Shown here: in pieces, positions 10,146 through 48,848 of the stretch | How the letters are laid out: every line of letters starts with the position of its first letter | How positions within the stretch are numbered: position 1 is the stretch's first letter | Assembly (NCBI RefSeq): GCF_003670115.1 | Contig: NZ_QQTY01000001.1 | Span: 434,001 to 498,000 of the forward strand | DNA length: 64,000 nt | Reading direction: 5' to 3' | From: Natronorubrum halophilum | Lineage (GTDB): Archaea > Halobacteriota > Halobacteria > Halobacteriales > Natrialbaceae | Translations under genes and position numbers: made by a program | The notes under the pieces: model-generated | The model's database searches: none | Told to the model about the DNA's origin: nothing | What the model saw: the letters and a program-made list of their open reading frames with translations, nothing else

Positions 10146-12497
10146 ATGACAACAAACGAAACTTCATATCGCGAAAAGGGACGCGCCGTGTTCCTGGCCG
10201 CGCTTATGGTAATGTCTGTCGTTGCCATGTCCGCAGCGTTTGTGGGCGGGGCGGCAGCGGCAACTAACGATGAATCCGACCTTCACTCAGGAGACACGTA
10301 CTGGGCAGGTCAAGACGTAGTGTTCACTGACGGCTCCGGAGACGATTCCACCTGGAACGTCTACGGTATCGATGGAGATAGCACGGACTTCCAGACTCAG
10401 ATTAACATCGACGCTGGCAACGGTAGCCTCGATACGTCCCAGCTGGACACCGAGGACTTCGACGAGTTCGCTATCCGCGACGATAACGGTGACTGGGTCA
10501 ACTTCGAGAACGGTGACGCAGCACCTGATGAAAACGCTAGCGCCGGCGACGTGAGCTTCACCGTCCTCCAGCAGGATCTGGAAGTCGAGTTCGAAGCCGA
10601 CACGGTCTCTGATCAGAGCTCCGAAGTCGGTGTTGACGTCACCGATGTCCGTGGTTCGCAGAACCTCATCGTTGAGGCCGACGGTCTCAACGGAGAGAAC
10701 CTCGAAGACATCTTCGCTGACGATGATGCCTCTAACAACGCAACGGACGATGAGGACACAGCACTCATCGAGGACGTCGAGAACGATCAGACTCTGACCG
10801 CGAACTTCACCGGCGTCGACACCGGTAACTTCACGTTCACGTTCACGAGCGAAGACACCGGTGTCTCCGCGTCTGACGACGTCGAAATCGTCGACGGTGG
10901 AGACGTCGACGCGCAGTTCGAAGACAGCTCTGTCAGCGAACACCTCGGTGACATCGCAGAGATCACGATCGACCTCGACAACACCGATAGTGCCGAGATC
11001 ACGATCGGTGGCGAAAGCGACGGCTGGATGGCCAACGCAACCGTTACTGACGAGGACGACTCTGGCAACGCAACTATCCTCTTCAACACGGCTCTTGCAG
11101 GCGACGAAAGCGCCAATGACGACGAAGTGCTGTACGCTGCAGATGATGATGATGGCTCCAGTGTCTCGGTCAACGAGCGCGAGAACGTCAGCTCCGGTGT
11201 TCTTGCAACGGGCTCCTACGACATGAAACTCGAGACCCAGGGTATGCAGACCGCACGCGGTACGCTGAACCTGCAGGAAGGTTCAGTCGACAGTGCAACG
11301 ACCTGGAGAGCCAACGGTAACGCTGAGTTCTCGGACGCTGAGGAACTCCGTGACTACCTCGACGACAACAGCGACGTCGCTGAAGGCGACCTCGCCGTTG
11401 TTGGCGTCGAAGCAAGCGGTATCTACGGCTACGACTGGGATAACCAGGGTATCAACCTGTCCATCGAGCAGTCGGAACCCGGAATGAACCAGGAACCTGT
11501 TTCGCTTGATTCCGATGACTACGACCTGGTAGAAGACAGTAACAGCAACGTCGTCTACTACGTCATCGAAACAGCGGGTCTTCTCGACAACGACAACGTC
11601 GAAGACGGTGAGGAGTTCAACTTCTCGCTCGATGTTGACGCAGAAGAGAACGATTACCTGAGCGAAGACGCAGAAGTCTCGAGCACGTTCACCGTGAACG
11701 AGCGCTCGATCGAGTTCGCACAGGAAGAGTACGTCGTTGAAAACACTGACGATGTGGAGATCTCCGGCACGTCCAACCTCGCATCCGGTTCCGAGATTGA
11801 CGTGACCGCTGAGACTGGCGGCGACAACGCGTTCTTCACCCAGGCCACCGCCGAAACCGACGAGAACGGTGACTGGACCGCTACGTTCGACTTCTCCGAG
11901 CGCGAACTCGGTACCGAATTCGAACTTACGGCCGAAGATGCCGAGAGCGATGCCACTGCTGAAGCAACTGGTCTCTTCGACGAGACCGACGAAGAGCCTG
12001 AGGAAGGCCTCTCCGTGAGTGTCGACGCACCAGACAGTATCGCTCAGGACGAAGAAGGCGACTTCGACGTCACTGTGACGAACGATAACGACGAAGAGGT
12101 CAACGAGACCGTCGAACTCGAGATTGGTAACGACACGCAAAGCGAGGAAGTTACCATCGAGGCCGGCGAGGACGCTTCGGTCACCTTCACCGTCTCCGGT
12201 GAGGACCTCGGCGTGGGCGACCACGACTGGACCGTCACTGCTGGTAACGCATCCGACGAGGGTACGTTGACCGTCTCTGACGACTCCAGCGGTGAAGACG
12301 ACGACGACAACGGCTCCGACGACGACAACGGCTCCGACGACGACAACGGTTCCGACGACGACGGTAGCTCCGACGATGACGGGAGCTCCGACGACGACGG
12401 CTCCGACGACGATGACGGAACGCCCGGCTTCGGTGTCGCTGTCGCCCTCGTCGCTCTGCTCGCAGCCGCGATGCTCGCACTGCGACGCCAGAACTAA
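10146..12497 (+). CDS. S-layer glycoprotein with PGF-CTERM anchor
   Basis: This is the surface-lattice protein, 783 residues and strongly acidic. It has a haloarchaeal S-layer signal peptide with SYREKGRAVFLAALMVMSVVAM and a likely cut after GGAAAA (about residue 34). A long beta-rich ectodomain follows, then a spacer of repeated Asp/Asn/Gly/Ser units (DDDNGS three times, then DDGSS repeats). The tail is TPGFGVAVALVALLAAAMLALRRQN, the PGF motif plus helix plus basic end that archaeosortase A recognises for lipid anchoring. I count about 16 N-X-S/T sequons, including three in the spacer, so it is a plausible acceptor for the glycosylation enzymes just upstream. Its promoter and structured leader are unlike its neighbours. 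Confidence 0.93.
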   Translation: MTTNETSYREKGRAVFLAALMVMSVVAMSAAFVGGAAAATNDESDLHSGDTYWAGQDVVFTDGSGDDSTWNVYGIDGDSTDFQTQINIDAGNGSLDTSQLDTEDFDEFAIRDDNGDWVNFENGDAAPDENASAGDVSFTVLQQDLEVEFEADTVSDQSSEVGVDVTDVRGSQNLIVEADGLNGENLEDIFADDDASNNATDDEDTALIEDVENDQTLTANFTGVDTGNFTFTFTSEDTGVSASDDVEIVDGGDVDAQFEDSSVSEHLGDIAEITIDLDNTDSAEITIGGESDGWMANATVTDEDDSGNATILFNTALAGDESANDDEVLYAADDDDGSSVSVNERENVSSGVLATGSYDMKLETQGMQTARGTLNLQEGSVDSATTWRANGNAEFSDAEELRDYLDDNSDVAEGDLAVVGVEASGIYGYDWDNQGINLSIEQSEPGMNQEPVSLDSDDYDLVEDSNSNVVYYVIETAGLLDNDNVEDGEEFNFSLDVDAEENDYLSEDAEVSSTFTVNERSIEFAQEEYVVENTDDVEISGTSNLASGSEIDVTAETGGDNAFFTQATAETDENGDWTATFDFSERELGTEFELTAEDAESDATAEATGLFDETDEEPEEGLSVSVDAPDSIAQDEEGDFDVTVTNDNDEEVNETVELEIGNDTQSEEVTIEAGEDASVTFTVSGEDLGVGDHDWTVTAGNASDEGTLTVSDDSSGEDDDDNGSDDDNGSDDDNGSDDDGSSDDDGSSDDDGSDDDDGTPGFGVAVALVALLAAAMLALRRQN

Positions 12498-12540: not shown

Positions 12541-12730
12541 CACTTTCTTTCGCACGCTACACCCGATAGCGACAGCCCTCGAGATCGGCCGTAAAGAGTC
12601 GTCGCTATTCCCCTCGAAGCAAAGACGGTCGCGTGTTAAACAGCGTAGACAGCTACGGCTCCATTGGTTTCAGACCCAGTTCGAAACGGTCGCACTCGCG
12701 TACGAATTATCCCGCCAGAACTGTTCAATA

Positions 12731-12739
12731 ACTATAAGT
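12731..12739 (+). promoter_or_regulatory. TATA box before the structured leader
   Basis: CTATAAGTA is centred at about 12735 and predicts initiation near 12762, just before the first of four consecutive hairpins. Confidence 0.45.
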
Positions 12740-12761
12740 AAATCCCGTCAGAAGTATCGCC

Positions 12762-12851
12762 CGGAAGTCACCTCGCGGGGGCATGCGCTGAAATGCCCCG
12801 GGTGCTAGGACACCCGAGACTGGCTTCCAAGCCACAACGGCTTTGTAAGCC
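12762..12851 (+). ncRNA. Candidate structured leader or small RNA with four consecutive hairpins
   Basis: Four perfect stems follow each other within 75 bases. GGGGCAT/ATGCCCC is at 12778-12784 and 12793-12799. CGGGTG/CACCCG is at 12799-12804 and 12811-12816. TGGCTT/AAGCCA is at 12821-12826 and 12829-12834. GGCTT/AAGCC is at 12839-12843 and 12847-12851. The first two share base 12799 and so stack or compete at their junction. The fourth ends at the base before the ATG of the next gene. The 5' end is inferred from the TATA box. It could be a cis-regulatory leader, an independent small RNA, or the scar of an IS605-type element's structured end. Confidence 0.45.
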
Positions 12852-13199
12852 ATGTTCGACTTACTCCCACCGAGACATAAACGTCTCGCAAGCCAACAGT
12901 ATCGCTCTCGAATAGCACCGCCGCCGTCCGCCCCTCGAGCCGGTTCGATATCGGCGGATCGAACGGCCCGTGTCGCGGGCTCCGGCAACGACTCCGGCGG
13001 GTCGACCGACTTGGAGACGGCCGAATCGGACTCGAGGACGGACGCCGACTCCTCGAGCGCGGCGGACGCCGCAACGACGTGGTCGCCGCCCCGCTGCCCG
13101 CGCTGTGACGCGCCGGTCAGGACCGTGACGGCTCTGGGGCCGACCGATCACTACGCCCACCCCTGTGGCTGCCGAGTGTACGCCGGGTTCCTCGAGTAG
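12852..13199 (+). CDS. Small zinc-ribbon protein of unknown function
   Basis: The protein has 115 residues. The N-terminal ~75 are Ser/Asp/Ala-rich and probably disordered. The C-terminal ~40 hold PRCPRCDAPVRTVTALGPTDHYAHPCGCRVYAG, a compact C-X2-C...C-X-C zinc-ribbon of a type common in small haloarchaeal proteins. The ATG directly follows the last hairpin of the leader, so translation would depend on how that leader folds. A start further in is possible, because only the C-terminus looks conserved. Confidence 0.6.
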   Translation: MFDLLPPRHKRLASQQYRSRIAPPPSAPRAGSISADRTARVAGSGNDSGGSTDLETAESDSRTDADSSSAADAATTWSPPRCPRCDAPVRTVTALGPTDHYAHPCGCRVYAGFLE

Positions 13200-48685: not shown

Positions 48686-48763
48686 GCGAGGGTCGCTTCG
48701 CTCGCCCTCTGGGCCACGAATCCGCTGAGCGCAGTCTCCGCTCACGACGTTGTTCGCGGAGAG

Positions 48764-48848
48764 TGCGCGGGACCGGATTCGAACCGGCGGACCCCTACGG
48801 GACAGCGTCCTAAGCGCTGCGCCGTTGGCCTAGCTTGGCTACCCGCGC
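48764..48848 (-). tRNA. tRNA-Leu (anticodon UAG)
   Basis: The gene reads GCGCGGG at the 5' end, pairing with CCCGCGC at the 3' end before the discriminator A. The anticodon stem is CAGCG/CGCTG with loop CTTAGGA, which gives anticodon UAG. A long variable arm (TCCC..GGGG) is typical of Leu. The T arm is GCCGG-TTCGAAT-CCGGT. The CCA end is not encoded. There is no intron, since the anticodon loop is a simple 7 bases. Confidence 0.95.

Follow-up and report, generated by a model that had tools for sequence, protein, structure and literature searches.

The RNA block upstream of a small zinc-ribbon gene in Natronorubrum halophilum is one copy of a structured mRNA leader, in which a P1-P2-P3 three-helix junction is followed by a P4 hairpin. 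By comparison of the copies, the RNA of about 90 nt can form either P1 or an alternative helix, anti-P1. It is probably a switchable 5' leader that acts in cis, with a trans-acting signal common to the copies setting the balance between P1 and anti-P1 and initiation at the AUG. As no catalogued RNA family fits it, the leader appears to be a new kind of gene switch. Most haloarchaeal mRNAs are leaderless or carry short leaders, and to our knowledge natural riboswitch-like control is almost undocumented in haloarchaea. The leader provides a common regulatory handle on a large set of uncharacterised small zinc-finger genes, and the signal of the whole gene set becomes approachable via one reporter. 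The window is the whole stretch of 64,000 nucleotides that was analysed (contig NZ_QQTY01000001.1, positions 434,001 to 498,000 of the forward strand); positions given without a further label are counted from its first base, and the leader features lie on its + strand.

Structure of the leader and its two folds

A TATA box (TATAAGT) is located at 12733-12739, upstream of the RNA block, with a predicted transcription start at about 12760-12763. The sequence-only reading had reported a TATA element and then four stems up to the base before the ATG. All of these are present in the window sequence, namely stem 1 (12778-12784/12793-12799), stem 2 (12799-12804/12811-12816), stem 3 (TGGCTtccaAGCCA, 12821-12834) and stem 4 (GGCTTtgtAAGCC, 12839-12851), the last of which ends one base short of the ATG at 12852. 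As a set of four local hairpins the description holds for the window but not for its relatives, where stems 3 and 4 are not kept locally. These two stems are overlapping GGCTT/AAGCC repeats; in one relative (L006, CCAACCC..GGGTTTGCAAGCC) P4 is kept and both are broken. Conserved elements absent from that list are P1, anti-P1 and a hairpin, P6, past the reported end. In folding calculations, only 3 of 200 dinucleotide shuffles matched or exceeded the stability of the stretch 12755-12860 (z -2.47). Just 5' of the leader, 10146-12497 encodes a secreted protein of 783 aa that has DUF7827 and PGF-CTERM and is probably located at the cell surface.

P1 is formed by a 5' arm at 12763-12774 (GGAAGTCA followed by CTC), at the predicted mRNA 5' end, and a 3' arm at 12816-12828 (GAG-AC-TGGCTTCC). 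Bases 12763-12770 and 12772-12774 pair with 12816-12818 and 12821-12828, and the helix closes the junction with P2 and P3. The P2 hairpin (12778-12799, GGGGCAT-GCGCTGAA-ATGCCCC) has seven pairs, each of which is changed on both sides in both alignments described below. P3 (12800-12815, GGGTG-CTAGGA-CACCC) has GTG/CAC closing pairs that recur widely. P4 (12829-12843, AAGCC-ACAAC-GGCTT, pairing 12829-12833/12839-12843) is found elsewhere as, e.g., AACCC/GGGTT. P6 (12871-12888, CGAGAC-ATAAAC-GTCTCG, arms 12871-12876/12883-12888) lies within the ORF, its loop starting at +26 (counted from the A of the start codon). P1, P2, P3, P4 and P6 all covary.

The TGGCTT of the P1 3' arm doubles as the 5' arm of anti-P1. 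Its alternative partner, for bases 12821-12826, is the AAGCC before the start codon together with the A of the AUG (12847-12852). Because this AAGCC matches the TGGCTT, P1 and anti-P1 are mutually exclusive. The three strands change together among copies, as in AGAAACC/GGTTTCT/AAACC (L035), GGAAGA/TCTTCC/AAGACC (L086) and GGGAAC/GTTCCC/AACCC (L083). An exchange of stems 1 and 2 through base 12799 had been suggested; the exchange that covaries is that of P1 with anti-P1.

Covariation was scored in two alignments made with structure-containing models, which favour the structure, and with many paralogues among the copies. In the first (A3, 103 copies), 34 of 36 pairs were changed on both sides as compared to a shuffled mean of 20.8, with a covariation score of 0.353 vs 0.118 shuffled. 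The second (A4, 33 copies found with covariance model R2, 22 of them outside the set used to build it) gave 34 of 36 pairs vs 23.6, and a score of 0.484 vs 0.137. In a free MAFFT alignment of 30 close copies, two-sided changes were seen at four pairs, against a mean of 3.8 after shuffling. That alignment is too uniform to decide, and P1 and anti-P1 were therefore examined by duplex energy. In this swap test the arms are exchanged among copies and the duplex energy is scored, the alignment columns serving only to locate the arms. It was run on 101 of the 103 copies, two being left out for want of an AUG in place, and kinship among copies remains in it. P1 scored -21.1 kcal/mol native and -14.5 kcal/mol swapped, and none of 5000 permutations reached the native value. 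For anti-P1 the values were -7.5 and -5.9 kcal/mol (0 of 5000; 101 copies), and -6.8 and -5.2 kcal/mol (0 of 5000) in the 47 distinct copies that carry bases other than AAGCC before the AUG. This anti-P1 difference of about 1.6 kcal/mol is modest, and the pairing is disrupted in some copies (L071, +0.9 kcal/mol). The computed P1 fold beats the anti-P1 fold in 160 of 168 copies, with a median gap of only 5.4 kcal/mol, at settings of 1 M NaCl and 37°C rather than molar KCl. One otherwise intact copy, L026, has AAG where the AUG is expected.

The leader ORF and the zinc-finger genes

A TATA-like hexamer is present 20-40 nt 5' of P1 in 120 of 168 copies, most commonly at a spacing of 30-31 nt. With the spacing fixed in this way, the mRNA should start at or near the first base of P1. 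Early in the ORF, a hairpin of 5 bp or longer is present in 119 of 158 distinct copies, with the 6-nt loop (P6) starting at +26 in 94 of these 119. Base C36, the third position of codon 12, is 96% conserved among the 158 copies, and conservation at such a position points to a constraint on the RNA rather than on the peptide.

The window copy opens a 115-aa ORF (12852-13199, +), in which the leader ORF is fused in frame to the zinc-ribbon protein, whose zinc motif begins at 13095. Between the two fused parts, no in-frame ATG or GTG was seen. The ATG at 12852 had been described as the start of the zinc-ribbon gene; this applies to the fused ORF of the window, but most relatives have a separate short leader ORF at this place. 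Of the five copies before zinc proteins of class A (see below) in the source genome, four have separate ORFs with a 4-nt overlap. A survey of 142 distinct copies found a single ORF with the zinc motif in six (the window's included), no zinc ORF by pattern in 47 and separate ORFs in 89. The start of the separate zinc ORF overlaps the stop of the leader ORF by exactly 4 nt in 74 of the 89, by 8 nt in six and by 11 nt in four. Taking the start closest to the stop biases this count towards short distances, but in most ORFs the choice was among no more than three starts (one to three). Of the five other rows, two (L122, L167) are artefacts of the pattern. The overlap is of the ATGA/GTGA type, as in a termination-reinitiation pair, the window copy being fused. 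Short overlaps couple translation in Haloferax volcanii, according to the accessible part of PMC10666635, and the 4-nt ATGA overlaps agree with termination-reinitiation in haloarchaea as described in the accessible parts of PMC6728339 and PMC10666635; the first ORF here differs in that it seems to have no conserved peptide and sits under a structured leader.

Changes at codon positions 1/2/3 were counted in 18 independent pairs of related loci. Codons 1-18 of the leader ORF gave 19/20/19 and the rest of that ORF 96/120/127, as compared to 134/122/265 for the zinc ORF. These counts indicate that the zinc protein is under protein-level selection and the tail of the leader ORF is not, while the head of the ORF is constrained as RNA. 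As its peptide is unconstrained, the leader ORF probably serves to deliver ribosomes to the zinc gene. The peptide is seemingly free to vary while the stop stays locked to the next start.

Out of 130 copies, 119 were distinct and had enough sequence for a test of the downstream gene. Counted as positive was a sense-strand ORF of 30-260 aa that has a paired Cys/His zinc motif and is located within 620 nt. Such an ORF was present in 81 of the 119. In the controls it was seen in 0 of 119 antisense stretches, in 5 of 212 upstream stretches and in 18 of 1056 distant windows of the same loci, i.e. at a rate of about 2% in control stretches. By eye, many of the 38 copies without a zinc motif by these patterns encode proteins of group C, D or E (see below), and a few encode non-zinc proteins. 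At L080 and L241 the leader precedes a non-zinc family (NRTRVPV.GGVLVYEAR..GRELIGFED), which is a possible hint to function.

The zinc proteins were labelled by eye as groups A (CPxCxxPVxxVxxxGP..PCGC), B (CxRC..CPDC), C (48 aa, CPVCGRPVR..GC), D (SWIM-like) and E (CPRGHRSWEPTN..CxxC). In profile comparisons, group A was to some extent related to C (probability 87%) but not to B (14%) or D (0.1%). When ten proteins were scanned for known families, SWIM alone was above the cut-off, in one protein; NCBIfam gave nothing over the cut-off, and two of the ten had strong matches in PHROGs, to viral families of unknown function. A class A profile, built from leader-bearing copies, found 30 loci in 30 genomes; the RNA was located upstream at E<1e-6 in 24, one had a weak leader (E 8.5e-4) and five had no detectable leader. 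In the source genome the leader precedes all five class A genes. At three of the five loci without the RNA (L275, L283, L287) a short ORF still overlaps the start of the zinc gene, as judged from the reading frames. Several class A matches in three genomes (G086, G018, G098) hold one in-frame stop, suggesting decaying copies in paralogue-rich genomes.

Nature of the signal and alternative explanations

The proposal of a cis-regulatory leader is strongly supported by hundreds of conserved copies, by covariation, by the fixed positions of TATA and AUG, and by the coding unit that follows. With P1 formed, the P2/P3 three-way junction would be closed and the strand before the AUG free; with anti-P1 formed, the AUG-adjacent strand would be captured. 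By inference, initiation would be ON in the P1 fold and OFF in the anti-P1 fold. A trans-acting signal common to all copies in the cell, for which a protein, a metal ion and a small molecule are candidates, would set the balance, and the balance would set the initiation rate at the AUG. The zinc protein would then be made via termination-reinitiation, or within the fused ORF as in the window.

The P2-P3 core has a mean identity of 0.77 within class A (703 pairs) and 0.79 between classes A and B (456 pairs). Since the core is equally alike across the two classes, the signal would not be specific to one protein, and one core before unrelated zinc proteins favours one common trans signal over self-binding. 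An autoregulatory leader is specific to its own protein, and here the cores of A and B are as alike as those within A. Self-binding by each zinc protein as the sole mechanism was rejected, because the core does not follow the protein class.

A possible, if tentative, form of the common signal is a host RNA-binding protein, perhaps the zinc-finger protein(s), that would bind P2/P3 and cross-regulate all copies. The P3 closing pairs and loop are recurrent (GTG-loop-CAC in 147 of 168 copies), the zinc products resemble nucleic-acid binders, and the copy in the virus HRPV-9 stands opposite a PhiH1-like repressor gene. However, the RNA core does not follow the zinc class, and A/B and A/D are not detectably related, which makes simple self-binding by each protein unlikely. 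Ribosomal-protein and other protein-binding leaders likewise have one structured leader per regulon, with the start codon in a switchable helix; the leader described here does not precede ribosomal genes and does not follow one protein family.

A riboswitch proper, in which the P2/P3 junction would bind a metal ion, most obviously zinc, or a small molecule, with P1 stabilised as a result, is somewhat doubtful. A conserved, aptamer-like RNA closed by P1 lies in the 5' UTR, the anti-P1 partner is at the AUG, and the comparative evidence of the swap test and energies ties the exclusive helices to an expression signal. One core is common to unrelated zinc proteins, and the downstream products are predicted metal binders. 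Metabolite riboswitches, however, usually precede transport or synthesis genes, and none were seen downstream of the leader. Translational riboswitches, including the fluoride riboswitch of Thermococcus kodakarensis, also act in cis at the mRNA 5' end, with an aptamer-like junction closed by P1 and an exclusive strand beside the start codon. In contrast to these, the present leader has no Rfam class and precedes small zinc-finger genes, and the likeness is drawn from sequence comparison. As of 2021, the fluoride riboswitch was the only natural riboswitch determined experimentally in archaea, as stated in the accessible part of PMC8241225. A fuller proposal, unlikely when taken as a whole, is that a native haloarchaeal riboswitch for zinc or another small ligand runs a cell-wide set of unrelated zinc-finger micro-proteins via an ORF that acts as a peptide-neutral 'ribosome ferry'; in pleolipoviruses this riboswitch would stand before an operon of zinc proteins and integrase.

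A leader whose P1/anti-P1 balance is set by temperature or ions themselves, no specific ligand being involved, would accord with two folds close in computed energy (median 5.4 kcal/mol), but it would need neither the conserved unpaired loops nor the near-invariant P3 closing region, and is improbable. Two further proposals had been an independent small RNA and the structured end of an IS605/TnpB element since lost. The many dispersed copies, some on plasmids and some in viruses, would suit either; both are very improbable, given that nearly all copies have an AUG at one and the same position and most are followed by a coupled coding unit. The structure passes the AUG into a translated ORF, which makes an independent small RNA unlikely. 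A search for the block next to tnpB, as had been proposed, showed that the two are located apart in the source genome: of ten tnpB matches only that at C2:335,689 is within 2 kb of any of ten RNA copies (E<1e-8), and no tnpB is annotated near the six plasmid leader copies read, so that a TnpB/IS605 end (omega RNA) was rejected. That an old gene start was merely copied along with its genes, with no regulatory role, is equally hard to credit, for although copies within a genome are alike and the leader is patchy within the genus, there are compensatory changes over deep distances, the same leader precedes unrelated proteins, and the head of the ORF combines a flat 19/20/19 distribution of changes with strong conservation.

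The view that no known RNA family fits is upheld by Rfam 15, which at gathering scores gave no match in the whole window or in ten relatives, the best match below threshold having an E of 0.097. A tRNA or tmRNA was rejected, as ARAGORN finds only a tRNA-Leu, at 48763-48848, in the window. The reverse strand folds about as well (z -3.13) and was rejected as the functional RNA, because TATA, AUG and ORF fit the + strand only. Cells with G-U and A-C number 178 to 84, favouring the + strand, although the model itself favours G-U there. No report of the leader was found in the literature searched, subscription papers and preprints being outside its scope. The accessible literature on very small zinc proteins agrees in describing very small predicted zinc proteins, many per genome, and in its accessible part makes no mention of a common structured leader.

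Distribution in haloarchaea and viruses

Of 125 genomes of the family, 69 were matched in a DNA search with 12725-12875, frequently at several places, and the distribution within the genus is patchy. The covariance search across haloarchaea that had been suggested as a check was performed with a model built from 30 copies (R1); it located the leader in 125 of the 392 genomes sampled from the order, where weak single matches (E near 1e-4) may include false ones. In a sample of the phylum, 51 of 392 genomes were matched at E<=1e-4, every one in the same order. GC-rich bacteria that matched a contig pattern scan (e.g. L123, L138, L173, L175) are chance matches, none confirmed by the covariance model. 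Named records with the leader belong to Natrinema, Natrialba, Halopiger, Halovivax, Halostagnicola, Natrarchaeobius and Haladaptatus. Copies are also located on haloarchaeal plasmids.

The leader is also present in two pleolipoviruses, HRPV-9 and Humcor2, both matched by the group E protein. At the start of those viral genes the leader model scored 60.7 bits (HRPV-9) and 42.8 bits (Humcor2). An integrase gene is downstream in both viruses, and the leader gene of HRPV-9 faces a PhiH1-like repressor gene. The leader therewith links host genes to a pleolipovirus region beside integrase and repressor genes. In the HRPV-9 record (L255, 4510-5566) leader and zinc protein are opposite the repressor gene and upstream of the integrase gene, and the leader may be part of a lysogeny region. 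The pleolipovirus region of CxxC protein and integrase is discussed as possibly regulatory in the accessible part of PMC7911831, which makes no mention of an RNA leader. A DNA search of phages with the window block gave no match, and no leader match was found at two tailed-virus SWIM homologues (L257, L258). Four pattern scans of viral contigs returned 1, 0, 1 and 0 contigs, that of the first scan scoring only 17 bits.

About 5.9 kb past the right end of the window, G000:C1:503875-504013 (-) is a degenerate leader copy with GTG for ATG, after which a zinc gene was sought and not found. The source genome contains ten copies at E<1e-8 and an eleventh at 6e-4 (model R2). Fuller scoring of 35 genomes at E<=0.01 gave copy numbers of 21, 15, 13, 12, 12 and 10 for some of them. 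L251 (genome G413) has 21 copies and L254 (G311) has 10, and zinc proteins of 45-48 aa follow in the copies read.
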